Below are positions 143 through 35,697 of a DNA stretch of 35,768 nt, one piece after another. Made by a program: the position numbers and the translations under genes. Every line of letters begins with the position of its first letter. The stretch's first letter is position 1. A model generated the notes under the pieces. The model was given only the letters and a program-made list of their open reading frames with translations, was not told the DNA's origin and did not search any database. The stretch lies in NCBI GenBank assembly GCA_016866775.1, contig VGLJ01000049.1:1-35768 (forward strand), given 5' to 3'. The DNA comes from Candidatus Rokuibacteriota bacterium. GTDB lineage: Bacteria > Methylomirabilota > Methylomirabilia > Rokubacteriales > CSP1-6.

Positions 143-1831
143 GTGAACGTGACGCGGAGAGATCTCTTCAAAGTCGCGCTCGCGAGCGCCGCGGCCGGGC
201 TCGACGCGCGCGCGCTGCTCACGGCCGACGCGGCGCCGGCGCGCATGACGGACGTCGACGCGCTCGGCAACGTCACGCTGCTCCACATCACCGACCCGCA
301 CGCGCATCTGAAGCCCGTCCTCTATCGCGAGCCCGACACGCTGATCGGCATCGGCGACGAGCGCGGCAAGCCGCCGTTCCTCACCGGCGCCGCGCTGCTG
401 CGCGCGTACGGCATCGCGCCGGGCAGCGCCGAAGCCTACGCGGTGACGCACGTCGACTTCGCGGCGCTGGCCGCGCGCCACGGCCGGCTCGGCGGCTATG
501 CCCACCTCGCGACGCTGGTGAAGCGCATCCGCGCGGAGCGCAGCGGCCGCACCCTCCTCCTCGACGGCGGCGACACGATCCAGGGCTCGGCGACCGCGCT
601 GTGGAGCCGGGGCGAGGACATGGTGCGCGCGTCGAACCTCCTCGGCGTCGACGTGATGACCCCGCACTGGGAGTTCACGTACGGGATGGAGCGCGTGCGC
701 GAGCTGTTCGGCGATCGCGAGCGCCGCGGGCTCTTCCAGGGTGAGTTCGTCGCGCACAACGTGTCCGAAGCCGGCTGGGGCGATCCGGTGTTCAAGCCGT
801 ACACGGTGCGCGAGGTCGGCGGGGTCCGGGTCGCCGTGATCGGCCAGGCGTTTCCGTACACGCCGATCGCGCACCCGCGCCGGTTCGTGGCGGATCTCAC
901 GTTCGGCATCCTCGAGGACGACGTGCAGCGCCTCGTCAACGAGCTGCGCGACTCGCGCCGCGCGGACGTCGTCGTCGTGCTGAGCCACAACGGGATCACC
1001 GCCGACCTGAAGCTCGCGGCGCGCGTGACCGGCATCGACGTGGTCCTCGGCGGCCACACGCACGACGCGCTGCCCGCGCCGATCGAGGCCGGCCGCACGC
1101 TGGTCGTCAACTCCGGCTCGCATGGCAAGTTCCTGAGCCGTCTCGACCTCGACGTGAAGGGCCACCGCGTCGCGGCCTACCGCTATCGCCTGATCCCGGT
1201 GCTCGCGCGCGACCTGCCCGAGGACGGGGAGATGGCGCGGCTCATCGCGCAGATCCGCGCGCCGCACGAGGCGAAGCTCGGCGAGGCGCTCGCGGTGTCG
1301 GAGTCGCTGCTGTGGCGTCGCGGCAACTTCAACGGCACGTTCGACGAGCTGATCCTCGACGCGCTGCTCAAGCGCGCCGACGCGGAAGTCGCGTTCTCAC
1401 CCGGCTTCCGCTGGGGCCTCACCGTCGTGCCGGGGCAGACGATCACGCCGGAGGACGTCTTCAGCCACACCGCGCTCACGTACCCGAACACGTGGACGCG
1501 CGAGATGACGGGCGCCGAGATCGTGCGCGTGATGGAAGACGTCGCCGACAACCTCTTCCACCACGATCCCTACTATCGCCAGGGCGGCGACATGGTCCGG
1601 CTGGGCGGCCTCACGTACGCGATCGAGCCCGGCGCCCTGCGCGGCCGGCGCGTACGGGATGTGCGGGTCGGCGGGCGCGCGCTCGACCCCGCGCGGCGAT
1701 ACAAGGCGACCGGGTGGGCGAGTCTCGGCGAGGCGAGCGGGCCGCCCGCCTGGGACGTGGTGGCCGATCACCTGCGCGCGCTCAAGCGCGTCAAGCTCGA
1801 TCCCCGCCCGCGCGTCCGCGTGTTAGGGTGA
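143..1831 (+). CDS. soxB: Thiosulfohydrolase SoxB
   Basis: SoxB is the periplasmic dimanganese enzyme that hydrolyses sulfate from the SoxY-bound sulfane chain in thiosulfate oxidation. The 562-residue length is normal for the family. The N-terminus carries a twin-arginine signal (TRRDLFK, residues 4-10), as expected for an enzyme exported folded with its metals. The metallophosphoesterase motifs are in order: HITDPHAHLKP, DGGDTIQGS, PHWEFTYG (SoxB has W where 5'-nucleotidases have the N of GNHE), VVLSHNG and GGHTHD. The C-terminal 5'-nucleotidase-like domain contains the SoxB-typical block DPYYRQGGDMVRLGG. The GTG start is chosen because it places the Tat motif correctly; no clear Shine-Dalgarno is visible. 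An IS5-type remnant ends just upstream, so other sox genes and the native promoter may have been displaced. The gene lies 5 bases from the thioredoxin gene. Confidence 0.95.
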   Translation: MNVTRRDLFKVALASAAAGLDARALLTADAAPARMTDVDALGNVTLLHITDPHAHLKPVLYREPDTLIGIGDERGKPPFLTGAALLRAYGIAPGSAEAYAVTHVDFAALAARHGRLGGYAHLATLVKRIRAERSGRTLLLDGGDTIQGSATALWSRGEDMVRASNLLGVDVMTPHWEFTYGMERVRELFGDRERRGLFQGEFVAHNVSEAGWGDPVFKPYTVREVGGVRVAVIGQAFPYTPIAHPRRFVADLTFGILEDDVQRLVNELRDSRRADVVVVLSHNGITADLKLAARVTGIDVVLGGHTHDALPAPIEAGRTLVVNSGSHGKFLSRLDLDVKGHRVAAYRYRLIPVLARDLPEDGEMARLIAQIRAPHEAKLGEALAVSESLLWRRGNFNGTFDELILDALLKRADAEVAFSPGFRWGLTVVPGQTITPEDVFSHTALTYPNTWTREMTGAEIVRVMEDVADNLFHHDPYYRQGGDMVRLGGLTYAIEPGALRGRRVRDVRVGGRALDPARRYKATGWASLGEASGPPAWDVVADHLRALKRVKLDPRPRVRVLG

Positions 1832-1836
1832 CGTGC

Positions 1837-2391
1837 ATGAGACTCCAGCGGCTCGCGGTCTCCATGGTGGTCGTCGCGCTCGCCGTCGGCGCGCTCGTCC
1901 CGGGCTCGCGCGCCCAGGCCAAGTCGCTCGAAGACCTGATGATGGACCTCAACATCGCGCCGCTCGAGCCGCAGGCCGCGCCGGCGCTGTCGGTCACGAC
2001 CATCGACGGGGGCCGGCAGACGCTGGCCGATCTGAAGGGCCAGGCAGTCCTCGTCTACTTCATGGCGACGTGGTGACCGTACTGCACGAGGGAGTTGCCC
2101 TCGGCCCTCGCGGACGTCCACCGGGAGATGAAGCCCCGCGGTCTCGTCGTCTTGCCGGTCTCGTTGCAGGAGTCGCGCGACACCGTCACGACGTGGACCA
2201 GGAAGGTGCCGCTGCCGTTCGGCGTGTTCCTCGATGAAGACGCCGCGATGGCGCGCGCGTGGCGGATCACGTCCACGCCGACGGTGTTCCTCATCGATCG
2301 TCGCGGCCGCGTCGTCGGCAAGGCCGTCGGTACGAAGCCCTGGTCGTCACCGGCCGGCCGCGCGCTCCTGACCGCGCTGCTGGCCTCGTGA
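1837..2391 (+). CDS. TlpA/ResA-like periplasmic thioredoxin, predicted selenoprotein (Sec80)
   Basis: Read through one in-frame TGA (2074-2076, codon 80), this gene encodes 184 residues. It has a signal peptide (residues 1-28, hydrophobic core VVVALAVGALV, SRAQA cleavage region), a thioredoxin-fold lead (TLADLKGQAVLVYFMATW), the active site W-U-P-Y-C at 79-83, and a downstream part with LPVSLQES, STPTVFLID (cis-Pro148) and GRVVGKAVG. TlpA/ResA proteins normally have W-C-x-x-C; the TGA sits exactly at the first, nucleophilic cysteine. Both halves are in the same frame and no other lesion is present. A stem-loop of bacterial SECIS type follows the TGA. It abuts soxB, and sox loci often carry a thioredoxin (SoxW/SoxS) that keeps SoxYZ or other Sox proteins reduced, so a similar role is inferred. 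The alternative is a point-mutated pseudogene, which would not explain the hairpin or the placement. A pipeline that does not recode TGA would split it into two ORFs. Confidence 0.82.
2087..2103 (+). promoter_or_regulatory. Putative bacterial SECIS hairpin
   Basis: CGAGGG (2087-2092) pairs perfectly with CCCTCG (2098-2103) around the 5-nt loop AGTTG (2093-2097). The hairpin starts 10 nt after the TGA at 2074-2076. The Escherichia coli fdhF minimal SECIS is likewise a 17-nt stem-loop about 11 nt after UGA, with a GU in the apical loop, which this loop also has. A weak lower stem is possible between GGTG 2072-2075 and CACC 2119-2122. Both strands of the stem lie within codons for the conserved thioredoxin fold, so coding constraint alone might explain part of it. 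Confidence 0.65.
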
Positions 2392-4136
2392 GTGACGACG
2401 CACTCGATCTCGACATCCTGATCCTCGGCGCGGGCGGCGCCGGCCTCTGCGCGGCGCTGCACGCGGCCGACGCGTCGACGTCCCTCCGCATCGGCGTCGT
2501 CGTGAAGGGCCTCCTCGGACGCGCCGGCTGCACGCGCATGGTCCAGGGCGGCTACAACGCGGTCTTCACGCCGCCCGACTCGCTCGACGCGCACCTGCTC
2601 GACACGCTCAAGGGCGGCGGCTGGATCAACGATCAGGAGCTCGTGTGGACGCTCGTGCGCGAAGCGCCGGGCCGCGTGCTCGAGCTCGAGTCCCGCTACG
2701 GCTGCCTCTTCGACCGCACGCCCGAGGGGCGCATCCACCAGAAGCCGTTCGCCGGCCAGACGCACGACCGCACGATCCACAAGGGCGACCTGACCGGCAT
2801 CGAGATCATGAACCGGCTCGCGGAGCAGGTGGACGCGCGCGCGAACATCGCGGTGCTCGAAGAGACGCGCGCCGTGGAGCTGCTGCTCGACGACGCGGGG
2901 CGCGCCGCCGGCGCGCTGGTCCTTGACATGCGGACGGGCGCGTTCACGACGGTGCGCGCGCGGGCGACGCTGCTCGCCATGGGCGGCGGGCCGACGATGT
3001 ACCGGATCTTCGCCTGCTCCGCCGACAAGTCCTCCGACGGGATCGCGCTCGCGTATCGCGCGGGGCTCGCGCTGCGCGACATGGAGATGGTCCAGTTCCA
3101 CCCGACGGGGCTCGTCATCCCGGGCTCGCTGATGACCGGCGCGCTGCTCGAGGAAGGGCTGCGCGGCGCCGGCGGCCACCTGCGGAACCGGCGGGGCGAG
3201 CGATTCATGGAGCGCTACGACGCCGCGCGCATGGAGCGGTCGACGCGCGATCTGGTCTCGCGCGCGTCGTATCTCGAGATCAGCGAGGGGCGGGGAACGC
3301 CGAACGGCGGCGTGTGGATCGACGTTTCGCACCTCGGCGCGGACGTCGTCGAGCGCAACTTCCGCGGGATGGTGAAGCGCTGCCGCGACTTCGGGCGCGA
3401 CCTCGCGCGCGGGCCCGTCGAGGTCGGGCCGACGACGCACTTCATGATGGGTGGCGTCGTGATCGACACGGCGTGCCGCACCGCGGTCGACGCGCTGTAC
3501 GCGGCCGGGGAGGACGCGGGCGGCGTTCACGGCGCCAACCGCCTGGGTGGCAACGGCGTCGCCGAGTCGACGGTGTTCGGCGGCATCGCGGGTGACGTGA
3601 TGGTGGAGGCCGTCGTCGGGCGGCCGGCTCCGCGCGTGTCGCGGGCGGCGGCTGACCAGGCGATCGCGCGTGCGACGGCCCCGCTCGCGCGCGCGGACGG
3701 TGGCACGAGCGGCGCCGGCGGCGATCTGTACGCGCTCCAGCGCTCCCTGCGCGACATCATGTGGGAGCGCGTCGGGCTCGTGCGCGACGGCGATGGCTTG
3801 AACGAGGCGCTCCGCACGATCGCGCGCATCGAAGCCGGGCTGGCGTCCGTCGGCGTCCCCGGCGGACCGTCGTTCAACATCGCGTGGCAGGACTGGCTGA
3901 ACCTCACGAGCCAGGTCCTGGTGGCGCGGCTGATCACGATGAGCGCGGCGGAGCGTCGCGAGAGCCGCGGCGCGCACTACCGTCGCGATTGCCCGATGAC
4001 CGATCCCGGACCGCCGTACGTGGTGCGCGTGCGCCGCGTCGGGTCGGGACCAGGCGTGACGCGCGAGCCGGTCGCGCTGACGCGCGCCACGCCCCCCGAG
4101 ACCGCGACGCCGGCGGCCGTCGAGACCGGCGACTGA
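2388..4136 (+). CDS. Succinate dehydrogenase/fumarate reductase-type flavoprotein subunit (second paralog)
   Basis: This is a 582-residue complex II flavoprotein. The FAD dinucleotide motif GAGGAG is at residues 14-19. Active-site motifs of the family are present: QFHPTG, EEGLRGAGG followed by RGERFMERY, THFMMGG and GANRLGGN, so the dicarboxylate-binding His and Arg residues appear intact. At the position where SdhA/FrdA carries the histidine that binds FAD covalently, this protein has Cys48 (GRAGCTRM); the paralog at 17802 has His48 in GKAHTVMAEGG. FAD is therefore probably held non-covalently or through a different bond. The GTG start overlaps the thioredoxin stop, and the next gene starts inside its own stop, so it belongs to the soxB-thioredoxin transcript. 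No iron-sulfur subunit follows directly; an orphan one is at 9829. Whether it oxidises succinate, reduces fumarate or acts on another dicarboxylate cannot be told. Confidence 0.85.
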   Translation: MSDDALDLDILILGAGGAGLCAALHAADASTSLRIGVVVKGLLGRAGCTRMVQGGYNAVFTPPDSLDAHLLDTLKGGGWINDQELVWTLVREAPGRVLELESRYGCLFDRTPEGRIHQKPFAGQTHDRTIHKGDLTGIEIMNRLAEQVDARANIAVLEETRAVELLLDDAGRAAGALVLDMRTGAFTTVRARATLLAMGGGPTMYRIFACSADKSSDGIALAYRAGLALRDMEMVQFHPTGLVIPGSLMTGALLEEGLRGAGGHLRNRRGERFMERYDAARMERSTRDLVSRASYLEISEGRGTPNGGVWIDVSHLGADVVERNFRGMVKRCRDFGRDLARGPVEVGPTTHFMMGGVVIDTACRTAVDALYAAGEDAGGVHGANRLGGNGVAESTVFGGIAGDVMVEAVVGRPAPRVSRAAADQAIARATAPLARADGGTSGAGGDLYALQRSLRDIMWERVGLVRDGDGLNEALRTIARIEAGLASVGVPGGPSFNIAWQDWLNLTSQVLVARLITMSAAERRESRGAHYRRDCPMTDPGPPYVVRVRRVGSGPGVTREPVALTRATPPETATPAAVETGD

Positions 4137-4453
4137 TGCCTGCGAAGGTCCTCAAGCGAGGGTGGGACGCGGAAGGGTGGCGCGACACCAAGGCCGGCAT
4201 GTGGGCGTGGCTGATCCAGCGCGCGGCGGCGATCCTGCTGCTCGTCGTGATCGCGCTGCATCTGATGAACCCGTTCCGCCGCGAGGTGCAGGCGGCACTC
4301 CTCGCGCTCGCGCTCCTTCACGCGCTGCTCGGCGTCCGCTCGCTGCTGCTCGACTTCGGGCTGCCGCTGCGGTGGCACCGCGCGCTGTTCGTGCTGGCTC
4401 TGCTGCTCGCCGCCGGCATCTTCGCGGCGGTGTGGACGTGGCGCTGGTACTGA
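4136..4453 (+). CDS. Small complex II membrane-anchor-like protein (SdhD/SdhC-type)
   Basis: The protein has 105 residues and about three hydrophobic segments: 22-43 (MWAWLIQRAAAILLLVVIAL), 52-72 and 79-103. The first segment ends with His42 and the second contains His62 in LALLHALLGVRSLLLDFG, a pattern like the haem b ligand helices of SdhC/SdhD anchors. The QR pair before the first helix is also reminiscent of SdhD. The ATG sits in TGATG with the flavoprotein stop, so translation is coupled to it. The protein would attach the upstream flavoprotein and an iron-sulfur subunit to the membrane quinone pool. Similarity is at the level of pattern and context, not a firm family match. Confidence 0.65.
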   Translation: MPAKVLKRGWDAEGWRDTKAGMWAWLIQRAAAILLLVVIALHLMNPFRREVQAALLALALLHALLGVRSLLLDFGLPLRWHRALFVLALLLAAGIFAAVWTWRWY

Positions 4454-14011: not shown

Positions 14012-16388
<2,377 letters not shown>

Positions 16389-32473: not shown

Positions 32474-33963
32474 ATGACAGCTCTTCGAGGCCCCTCCCTT
32501 GCGACGCTCGTTGTGATCGCGGTCCTTGCGCCCGCGCCGTCCGCCGCGGCGCCCGAAGGCCAGATGACCTGGGCCGTGCACGTCTCGCTGGCGCCCACGT
32601 GGTTCGATCCCGCCGAGACCTCCGGAATCATCACGCCCTAGATGGTGCTGTACGCGCTGCACGACGCGCTGGTGAAGCCGATGCCGGGCAACCCCGCGGC
32701 CCCGAGCCTGGCCGAGTCCTGGAGCATGTCGCCGGACGGGCTCGTCTACGAGTTCGTCCTCCGCAAGGGCGTCAAGTTCCACAACGGCGAGCCGGTCACC
32801 GCCGAGGACGTCAAGTTCTCGCTCGAGCGCTACCGCGGCGCCGCTCACAAGCCGCTCAAGGAGCGCGTGGCGGCCGTCGAGACGCCGGATCCCGCGCGAG
32901 TCCGGATCCGGCTGAAGAGGGCGTGGCCCGACTTCCTGACCTTCTACCTGAACGCCACCGGCGCCTCCTGGATCGTGCCAAAGAAGTACGTCGAGAAGGT
33001 CGGGGACGAAGGGTTCAAGAAGGCCCCGATCCGCGCCGGCCCGTTCCGGTTCGCGTCGTTCACCCCCGGCGTCGAGCTGGTCCTCGAGGCGTTCGACCAG
33101 CACTGGAGGAAGGCGCCGCACGTGAAGCGCCCGGTCCTCAAGTCGATCCCGGACGAGGCCACGCGCCTGGCCGCGCTCAAGCGGGGTGACGTGGACATCG
33201 GCTATGCGATCCGCCAAGCCCGTTGTCGGCCTGGCCACGCACTGGGTCTACTTCACGGAGCAGTGGGACCCGAAGTCGCCGTGGCACGATCGGCGCGTGC
33301 GCCTGGCCGCCAACCACGCCATCGACCGGCAGGCGATCAACCAGGCCGACGCGCTCGGGCACGCCCGCGTCAACTGGAGCATCGTCCCGCCGAGCTTCGA
33401 CTTCTACTGGCAGCCACCGGGCTACGGGTTCGATCCTGGCAGGGCCAGGCAGCTCCTCGCCGAGGCCGGGTACCCCAACGGCTTCGAGGCGGGCGACTAC
33501 TTCTGCGACGCCGCGATCACCAACATCGGGGAGCCGGTCGTCAACTACCTCAACGCGGCCGGCATCCGGGTGAAGCTCCGGCCGATCGAGCGCGCGGCGT
33601 ACTTCAAGGGGTTCGCCGAGAAGAAGTACAAGGGCCTGATCCACGGCGCCAGCGGCGCCTTCGGCAACGCGGCCACCCGCGTCGAGGCGTTCGTCGCCGG
33701 CGGCGGCACCTACGCGTACGGCAGCGACACCGATCTCGACGGGCTCGTCCGGGAGCAAGGCCGCCGAGCTGGATCCCCGGCGCCGGGCCGCGACCCTCGA
33801 GCGCATCCAGCAACTCATGCACGAGAAGGCGATGTTCGCGCCGATCCACCTGAACGCCGCCATGATGGGCTTCGGGCCGAGGGTGGCGGAGTCCGGGCTC
33901 GGGGCCATCGCCGGCTATCTGTGGTCCGCGCCCTACGAGGACCTGAAGCTGAAGGGCAAGTGA
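32474..33963 (+). pseudogene. Decayed ABC transporter substrate-binding protein, family 5
   Basis: The gene starts normally (GGAGG, ATG 32474, signal peptide LATLVVIAVLAPAPSAAA) and continues as a peptide-type binding protein: FVLRKGVKFHNGEPVTAEDVKFS, AGPFRFASFTPG. Three lesions break it. First, an in-frame TAG is at 32639-32641 between SGIITP and MVLYALHDALV. Second, a frame change near 33215 lies where text between GDVDIGYAI and PVVGLATHWVYF is also missing. Third, a frame change near 33765 comes before the end (AAELDPRRRAATLERIQQ to APYEDLKLKGK, TGA 33963). It is related to, but distinct from, the intact DppA-like gene at 6626. The downstream amidohydrolase gene is intact. Confidence 0.85.
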
Positions 33964-33972
33964 GGAGATCGA

Positions 33973-35103
33973 ATGACCGACTATCGCGTCATCTCCGCTG
34001 ACTGCCACATCGACATGACCTGGATGCCCGGCGACCTCTGGGTGAAGAACGCGCCGGCGAAGTTCAAGGAGCAGGTGCCACAGGTCCGCGAGACCGACGA
34101 TGGTCCCCACTGGTTCGTCGAAGGGAAGGACGTCGGCGTCTACGGCGGGCTCGGCTTCGGCTTCGACCGCGTCAAGCGCGGATACTCGAAGCACGTCGAC
34201 AAGATGTTCGACGTCGGCTTCTATGAGGGCGGGCCGCATCCGACCACGCCCGCGCTGCGGCTGAAGGACCAGGATCTCGACGGCATCGACGCCGAGGTGA
34301 TGTACGGGATCCTCGGCATCGGCATGAAGATGACCGATCGCGAGGTGATCCAGTCCGTCTACGAGGTCTACAACGACTGGGCCGCCGACTTCTGCAGGAC
34401 GAATCCGAAGCGGTTCGTCGGCCTCATGTGCCTGCCCAACCACGATCCCGAGGCGGCGGCGCGCGAGCTGCGTCGCGCGGCCGCGCTCGGTCTCCGAGGC
34501 GCGGACTTCGCGGTCTCCACCGCCGTGTATCCGATCTGGCACGGCGCATGGGATCCATTGTGGGCCGCCGCGCAGGAGTGCCGGATCCCGATCTCCTTCC
34601 ACACGACCGGCACGCCGGTGCGCGAGCCGTCGGACGACGTGATGAAGCAGGAGTACGAGCTGCGCTGGCGCGCCGTCCGCACGACGATGTTCCAGATTGC
34701 TGCGGCGGAGTTCCTCGCGAGCATCGTGTTCTCGGGCGCGCTCGACCGCTTTCCCGAGTTCAAGTTCGTGCTCGGCGAGGCGGGCGTGACGTGGCTGCCG
34801 TACATCCTCGACCGGATGGACGAGGAGTACGAGGACCGCTACTACCCGCTCAAGCTGTCGATGAAGCCGAGCGAGCTCTGGCGCCGCCAGGGGTACTCGA
34901 CGTACCAGCGTGAGCCGTCGCTCGCGACGATGATCCCGCTGATCGGCGAGGACACGATCATGTGGGGCTCGGACTATCCGCACCCGGACGGGATCTGGCC
35001 CGATTCAGGGAAGTGGATCGAGAACGATCTCGCCGGCGTCAGCCCGGCGGTCCGGCGCAAGATCGTGTGCGAGAACGCCGCGCGGCTCTACCGGTTCGTG
35101 TAG
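33973..35103 (+). CDS. Amidohydrolase family 2 (ACMSD-like) metal-dependent hydrolase
   Basis: A 376-residue TIM-barrel protein of the amidohydrolase-2 group. The N-terminal strand has ISADCHIDM (HxH-like start reduced to C-H-I-D), then VMYGILGIGM, RFVGLMCLPNHDPEAAARELRRAA, the mid-barrel His in IPISFHTTGTP, FVLGEAGVTWLP, and the C-terminal Asp in IMWGSDYPHPDGIWPDS. The family includes decarboxylases such as ACMSD and hydrolases of aromatic breakdown; the exact reaction is unknown. GAGGAGAT precedes the ATG. It follows the decayed binding-protein gene by 9 bases, suggesting both once formed an uptake and catabolic unit. Confidence 0.85.
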   Translation: MTDYRVISADCHIDMTWMPGDLWVKNAPAKFKEQVPQVRETDDGPHWFVEGKDVGVYGGLGFGFDRVKRGYSKHVDKMFDVGFYEGGPHPTTPALRLKDQDLDGIDAEVMYGILGIGMKMTDREVIQSVYEVYNDWAADFCRTNPKRFVGLMCLPNHDPEAAARELRRAAALGLRGADFAVSTAVYPIWHGAWDPLWAAAQECRIPISFHTTGTPVREPSDDVMKQEYELRWRAVRTTMFQIAAAEFLASIVFSGALDRFPEFKFVLGEAGVTWLPYILDRMDEEYEDRYYPLKLSMKPSELWRRQGYSTYQREPSLATMIPLIGEDTIMWGSDYPHPDGIWPDSGKWIENDLAGVSPAVRRKIVCENAARLYRFV

Positions 35104-35180
35104 GCGACGCGATACGTGGCTTATTGATCTTTCGACAAAGAATGCATCCATTTCCGACGTGCTCTACTCCCGTGGTCGGC

Positions 35181-35697
35181 ATGAGACCACCAGGGACCCC
35201 CGAGCAGTTGGAGACGCGGCGTCGGCGTGCCGTGCCCCTGCTCCATGCCGGCACGTCGTACCGCGAGGTCGCACGGCAAGTGGGAGTGTCGCTGAGTTCG
35301 GTCGTCCGATGGGAGCAAGCGTATCGCCGCGATAAGCGGAACGGGCTGCGAGCACGCCCGATTCCTGGCCGCCCGTGCCGACTGTCCGCCTCCCAGCAGG
35401 ACCAGTTGAAAACCGTGTTGCGCCGTGGCGCGGGCGCGGCCGGATATGCGACCGAGTTGTGGACGCTCCAGCGCATCAGCCAGGTCATCCGCAAGCGGTT
35501 CGGTGTGCGGTACAGCCCGGTCGGCGTCTGGGCTGTCCTGCGTCACGGCCTCGGGTGGAGTTGGCAGAAGCCGGAACGGCGGGCGCTCCAGCGCGACGAA
35601 GCCGCCATCGCGCAGTGGCGCGGCAGAAGGAATGGCCCCGGATCACTCTCGTCCAAATTAGCGGTGCGAGCGGGTGAGCCCCCTGGGGTAGGGTGAG
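35181..35697 (+). pseudogene. Truncated IS630-family-like transposase (N-terminal part)
   Basis: The frame from ATG 35181 encodes about 150 residues of the DNA-binding half: RRRRAVPLLHAGTSYREVARQVGVSLSSVVRWEQAYRR (helix-turn-helix), RPIPGRPCRLSASQQDQL, and the winged part VIRKRFGVRYSPVGVWAVLRHGLGWS. After AAIAQW the frame is lost by an apparent two-base insertion near 35625; the next frame briefly reads RQKEWPRI and then leaves the family. The DDE catalytic half is absent, and unrelated DNA follows from about 35645. The A+T-richer stretch 35108-35160 may hold the left end of the element. Confidence 0.7.

Follow-up and report, generated by a model that had tools for sequence, protein, structure and literature searches.

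The locus and its genes

Near the start of the window, by which we mean the whole 35,768-nucleotide stretch of DNA that was analysed, lie the following genes and features.

143-1831, plus strand: soxB, thiosulfohydrolase (TIGR04486, 778 bits; cut-off 550)
1837-2391, plus strand: predicted exported thioredoxin of the TlpA/ResA type containing selenocysteine (Sec), SoxW-like, 184 aa, with its stop TGA at 2389-2391
2074-2076, plus strand: predicted Sec UGA codon, residue 80, in the motif W-U-P-Y-C (of the 30 nearest homologues, 28 have TGA in the same column and two have Cys)
2087-2103, plus strand: predicted bacterial SECIS hairpin, with a 6-bp stem (CGAGGG, 2087-2092; CCCUCG, 2098-2103) and the loop AGUUG (2093-2097)
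2388-4136, plus strand: flavoprotein of the fumarate-reductase type (TfrA-like); its GTG start codon shares bases with the thioredoxin stop (GTGA)
4136-4453, plus strand: 105-aa protein with hydrophobic segments, whose frame overlaps the stop of the flavoprotein gene; no NCBIfam match

The frame of 1837-2391 is interrupted only by the TGA at codon 80 (2074-2076) and, as the initial annotation had stated, has no other lesion. The same annotation had proposed that read-through gives one signal-peptide-bearing thioredoxin, and this agrees with what we find. The 184-aa read-through product matches PF00578 (AhpC-TSA) with 85.5 bits, against a cut-off of 26, over residues 46-160, that is, on both sides of the TGA, and a signal peptide can be read by eye at about residues 1-28. 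The thioredoxin fold is clear from the sequence alone. Residue 80 aligns with the first Cys of the CxxC motif in ResA (PDB 3c71 and 1st9) and in PDB 3kcm, so the TGA indeed falls, as had been claimed, at the first redox Cys of a TlpA-like thioredoxin. Automatic annotation would split such a gene or label it a pseudogene. When the window was scanned for TGAs flanked on both sides by coding-like composition, the one at 2074-2076 was the only mid-gene case: the remaining ones on the coding strand are gene ends abutting the next gene, and those on the minus strand, at 16010 and 20064, are antisense to genes. This singularity, together with the retention of the column in homologues, argues that the TGA is not there by chance.

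The overlap of the flavoprotein start with the thioredoxin stop suggests that the two genes are probably translationally coupled. A TfrA-like flavoprotein is the usual downstream neighbour of the thioredoxin gene in relatives as well. The 105-aa protein encoded next is a possible anchor.

The hairpin downstream of the TGA

Shortly 3' of the TGA, at 2087-2103, is the sequence CGAGGGAGTTGCCCTCG. The published model of the bacterial SECIS element (bSECIS) has a loop of 3-9 nt with a G in its first two positions, a stem of 4-16 bp, a distance of 16-37 nt from the UGA and an energy of -7.5 kcal/mol or lower. The hairpin lies within all of these bounds: its loop of 5 nt has G as the second base, the stem has 6 bp, the UGA-to-loop distance is 16 nt, and the folding energy is -9.1 kcal/mol for the 17-nt hairpin and -12.8 kcal/mol for 37 nt. 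No SECIS family matching the hairpin was found in Rfam.

The six stem pairs are all formed in 41/41 distinct TGA genes and in 0/21 distinct Cys genes, where the maximum is five, indicating that the hairpin goes with the UGA. Three of the six pairs covary (states C-G, G-C and A-U in one pair, A-U and G-C in another, G-C and A-U in the third), with 21 cells changed on both sides among 25 distinct rows. The covariation score was reached by none of 500 shuffles, and slid structures scored far lower. Some of the covarying changes affect wobble positions in Pro or Ser codons and therefore follow the RNA, not the protein. Rare synonymous codons are also held fixed within the hairpin of TGA genes. The Leu codon of the loop is TTG or TTA in all 41 distinct TGA genes; TTR accounts for 2.5% of Leu codons across the window and for 22 of the 755 other Leu codons of the TGA genes, the remaining 733 being CTN. 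The Arg codon AGG in the hairpin is likewise rare (3.8%). In L035, a relative with Cys, these codons are gone, with CGG for AGG and CTG for TTG.

The selenocysteine machinery

The host genome of the window (5.13 Mb, 97.5% complete) encodes the machinery that a Sec codon requires. The lack of selA, selB, selC and selD had been named beforehand as an outcome that would speak against Sec; all four are present with scores over curated cut-offs. The tRNA-Sec scores 70 bits (cut-off 47) and is also called by ARAGORN, as tRNA-SeC with anticodon tca; selA scores 592 bits (cut-off 268), selB 381 bits (cut-off 242) and selD 335 bits (cut-off 125). The genes selA, selB and selC adjoin each other on one contig, and selD has a UGA of its own, in a UASK motif.

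No tRNA-Sec was found in 11 of the 57 genomes of the host's family, some of which carry TGA copies of the thioredoxin gene. Six of the 11 have selB over the cut-off and two more have pieces of selB at contig ends, so the draft assemblies are probably just incomplete at these places. In three drafts that are 77-81% complete and carry TGA copies (G023, G042 and G043), neither tRNA-Sec nor selB was found, probably because of incompleteness.

Conservation of the TGA and the tree

Homologues of the 1837-2391 product are present in 57/57 genomes of the host's family. Of the 30 closest family homologues, window copy included, 28 carry TGA in the residue-80 column and two carry a Cys codon. A separate scan of genome contigs with the Cys-substituted product gave only distant relatives, most of them archaeal. 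The initial annotation had suggested looking for Cys in this column of relatives, where it does occur, and had named further nonsense mutations in close relatives as counter-evidence, of which there are none: relatives keep the single TGA. TGA genes number 49 in total, 41 of them distinct over the first 33 nt, and 24 Cys copies were examined. A pattern that combines the TGA with the hairpin core occurs at 43 places in 36 of the 95 genomes of the phylum, while the reversed control pattern occurs at none in the same 95. The two places outside the family are also in TlpA-like genes with U.

A tree of 72 rows was built in which each UGA was coded as C, so that the Sec or Cys label did not shape it. 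The 49 Sec rows and two Cys rows form one branch (support 100/97), within which both Cys rows are nested. Going by these sequences, the nesting is most simply read as reversion from Sec to Cys on two occasions, once in L035, beside soxB in genome G019, and once in L031, in genome G035; L031 sits on a long branch, and its precise position is uncertain. Both G019 and G035 still have tRNA-Sec. Reversions from Sec to Cys occur naturally in this family next to orthologues that retain Sec, which makes it a clean setting in which to study what maintains Sec.

The earlier proposal that the TGA is a Sec codon is supported by the presence of the sel genes, the conserved column, the covarying SECIS hairpin with its fixed rare codons and the Cys in two nested relatives. 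As far as sequence can tell, the seemingly broken gene is almost certainly intact, its TGA read as selenocysteine; it is conserved and almost certainly encodes an active enzyme. The product is very probably a selenoprotein, an exported thiol-disulfide oxidoreductase of the TlpA/ResA fold with Sec as the attacking residue (U-P-Y-C).

Association with the sox cluster

Matching of soxB places to thioredoxin places across genomes shows the thioredoxin gene 0-3 kb downstream of soxB, on the same strand, in 23 genomes (TGA in 22, Cys in one). The Sox-linked copies fall in one subclade (support 99/92). The order in relatives is PhsA-like MopB, soxY, soxZ, SoxX-SoxA fusion, soxB, thioredoxin, TfrA-like flavoprotein. 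In the host genome the set is divided by a contig break between the window and contig C92, which has SoxY (over the cut-off and ending GGCGG), SoxZ and SoxXA. Contig C92 ends in transposase-like sequence, positions 1-108 of the window are a transposase-like 3' end, and a second transposase-like piece lies at the other end of the window (34962-35696). Given these pieces, the sox cluster of the host may be interrupted by insertion sequences. A few thioredoxin copies have no soxB nearby: L061 and L063 keep soxYZ-XA, L065 retains MopB and the flavoprotein alone, and in L066 the flavoprotein is retained. In view of these copies, the link to Sox is strong but not absolute.

Alternative explanations

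A stop within a frame of a draft genome permits, at first sight, the reading that a plain nonsense mutation or a sequencing error produced the TGA and that the gene is a pseudogene. That dozens of species have TGA in this very column, along with a conserved covarying hairpin and no other lesion, leaves this reading next to no probability. The UGA might instead be decoded as Cys or as Trp, through a suppressor tRNA or an altered genetic code. In favour of this, relatives have Cys in the column, so that an inserted Cys would give an active enzyme. However, the host has tRNA-Sec together with SelA, SelB and SelD, UGA serves as a normal stop in 1837-2391 and in neighbouring genes, and plain suppression needs no hairpin; we regard such decoding as very unlikely. 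Two short proteins might be made instead, the second from TTG 2095 inside the hairpin, and open reading frames from the TTG of GAG-TTG do occur in relatives. Such a division would cut the thioredoxin fold in the active-site helix and part the signal peptide from the fold, and conservation runs unbroken across the TGA, which makes it as improbable as the pseudogene. Conservation, hairpin and fold thus led us to reject pseudogene, code change and split gene.

A real selenoprotein could still be a general periplasmic disulfide reductase, serving for example cytochrome c maturation, SoxXA included, with its position among the sox genes due to co-regulation. ResA, CcmG/DsbE and TlpA belong to the same fold family, SoxXA carries haem, some copies are beside the TfrA-like flavoprotein and MopB enzyme without soxB, and the host genome has Cys paralogues, one of them directly before a DsbD_TM gene. 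Against a general role stand the grouping of the Sox-linked copies, near soxB in 23 genomes, in a single subclade, and the scores of the product, which are far below the curated cut-offs for ResA (79.4 vs 170), rhizobial TlpA (50.8 vs 230) and DsbE (46 vs 123). We would put the chances of a general reductase well short of even, and those of a role dedicated to Sox slightly better than even.

Proposed function

The reading we prefer is a selenocysteine-containing SoxW-like reductase, in which Sec is near certain and the Sox role is inferred. The UGA, the SECIS element, the Sec machinery, the fold and the cluster are there in the DNA; export, the direction of the reaction as a reductase and SoxY as substrate would follow by analogy. 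During translation, SelB would dock on the hairpin at 2087-2103 and bring the tRNA-Sec that decodes the UGA at 2074-2076, with SelA and SelD supplying Sec. In the exported protein, the Sec80 selenolate would be expected, as in known families, to attack disulfides or persulfides, with Cys83 resolving afterwards. The periplasmic source of electrons would be a membrane protein of the CcdA/DsbD type; such genes are present in the host genome and none of them is on the contig of the window. The thioredoxin would most likely act in this way as SoxW does and keep the cysteines of Sox proteins reduced, above all the one in the C-terminal GGCGG of SoxY, its putative substrate.

The location of the gene with Sox genes in some 20 related uncultured bacteria (23 genomes) suggests that its product is a helper in sulfur oxidation that uses selenium. 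A wider proposal, which we hold tentatively and rate a little below an even chance, is a selenium-dependent Sox system: the Sec thioredoxin would have been in the sox operon before the radiation of the family, would have reverted to Cys at least twice, and thiosulfate oxidation would need selenium. If the Sox role is true, selenium would be linked to inorganic sulfur oxidation. Such a link would be unexpected, given that PMC13188914 describes the organisms with the most selenoproteins as mostly anaerobic.

Relation to known systems

The initial annotation had also suggested that a Sec-containing periplasmic thioredoxin next to soxB falls outside the standard set of Sox components. This needs correcting, since periplasmic thioredoxins, namely SoxW and SoxS, are established accessories of Sox systems (PMC10451225, PMC10318464). 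Titles cited in PMC10451225 describe the periplasmic thioredoxin, SoxW or SoxS, as being reduced by SoxV or as keeping Sox active in another way, and SoxW of Thermus adjoins SoxYZ (PMC10318464). The unusual part of the soxB-adjacent thioredoxin is the Sec. Like SoxW/SoxS of Rhodovulum, Paracoccus and Thermus, the product has a thioredoxin fold, is predicted to be exported and is encoded among or next to sox genes; unlike them it has Sec for the first Cys and is soxB-adjacent, and the label SoxW-like refers to its position in the sox cluster. No SoxW family model matching the product was found in NCBIfam, and the plasmid records searched for the SoxW comparison gave only generic TlpA/redoxin proteins. 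ResA of Bacillus, TlpA of Bradyrhizobium and PDB 3kcm share the fold and the active-site position, but those proteins have Cys, and the ResA and TlpA family scores are, as given above, far below cut-off. The ResA-like WAxxUGC selenoprotein NF041054 also has Sec in a ResA-like protein, but its motif is U-G-C rather than UxxC, and the match is 47.5 bits against a cut-off of 300.

Closest in kind are two predicted entries in Table 1 of PMC13188914, a Prx-like thiol:disulfide oxidoreductase (PF00578, UxxC) and a thiol-disulfide isomerase-like protein (cd02966, UxxC). These share with the present product the PF00578/TlpA-like fold, a UxxC motif that begins with Sec, a bSECIS and the bacterial Sec machinery, and since they are already catalogued, a Sec-containing TlpA-like protein is not new. 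The difference lies in the tie to a Sox cluster in one bacterial family, which those catalogue entries do not give. In a literature search that was not exhaustive, neither a Sec-containing Sox thioredoxin nor Rokubacteria selenoproteins were found, and within that search a Sec lineage built into a sox operon seems undescribed. Judging by gene content and by the shape of the phylum in the pattern search, the host is probably a member of Rokubacteriales (Methylomirabilota). According to PMC13188914, one genome of Methylomirabilota has as many as 63 selenoprotein genes by prediction.

Other observations

Judged by its sequence, the host genome is rich in candidate selenoproteins, selD included. 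At least five more thioredoxin-fold genes have an in-frame TGA at the redox Cys (L070, L073, L074, L077 and L079), with motifs of the types WUPDC, WUGC, WUPFC and WUPYC, and a hairpin follows the TGA in 4/4 of those that were folded. SoxX and SoxA are in one chain in the host's family (L061:3502-4797, L056:3914-5341 and the host's own C92); in L061 and L056 both NCBIfam models, SoxX and SoxA, score over cut-off. The PhsA/DmsA-like molybdopterin enzyme (L058:1063-3873 and orthologues) is a steady upstream neighbour of the sox cluster. Elsewhere in the window, a gene for a peptide ABC transporter binding protein (32642-33963) shifts frame at about 33190 and 33770, apparently two frameshifts that reflect decay or assembly error.
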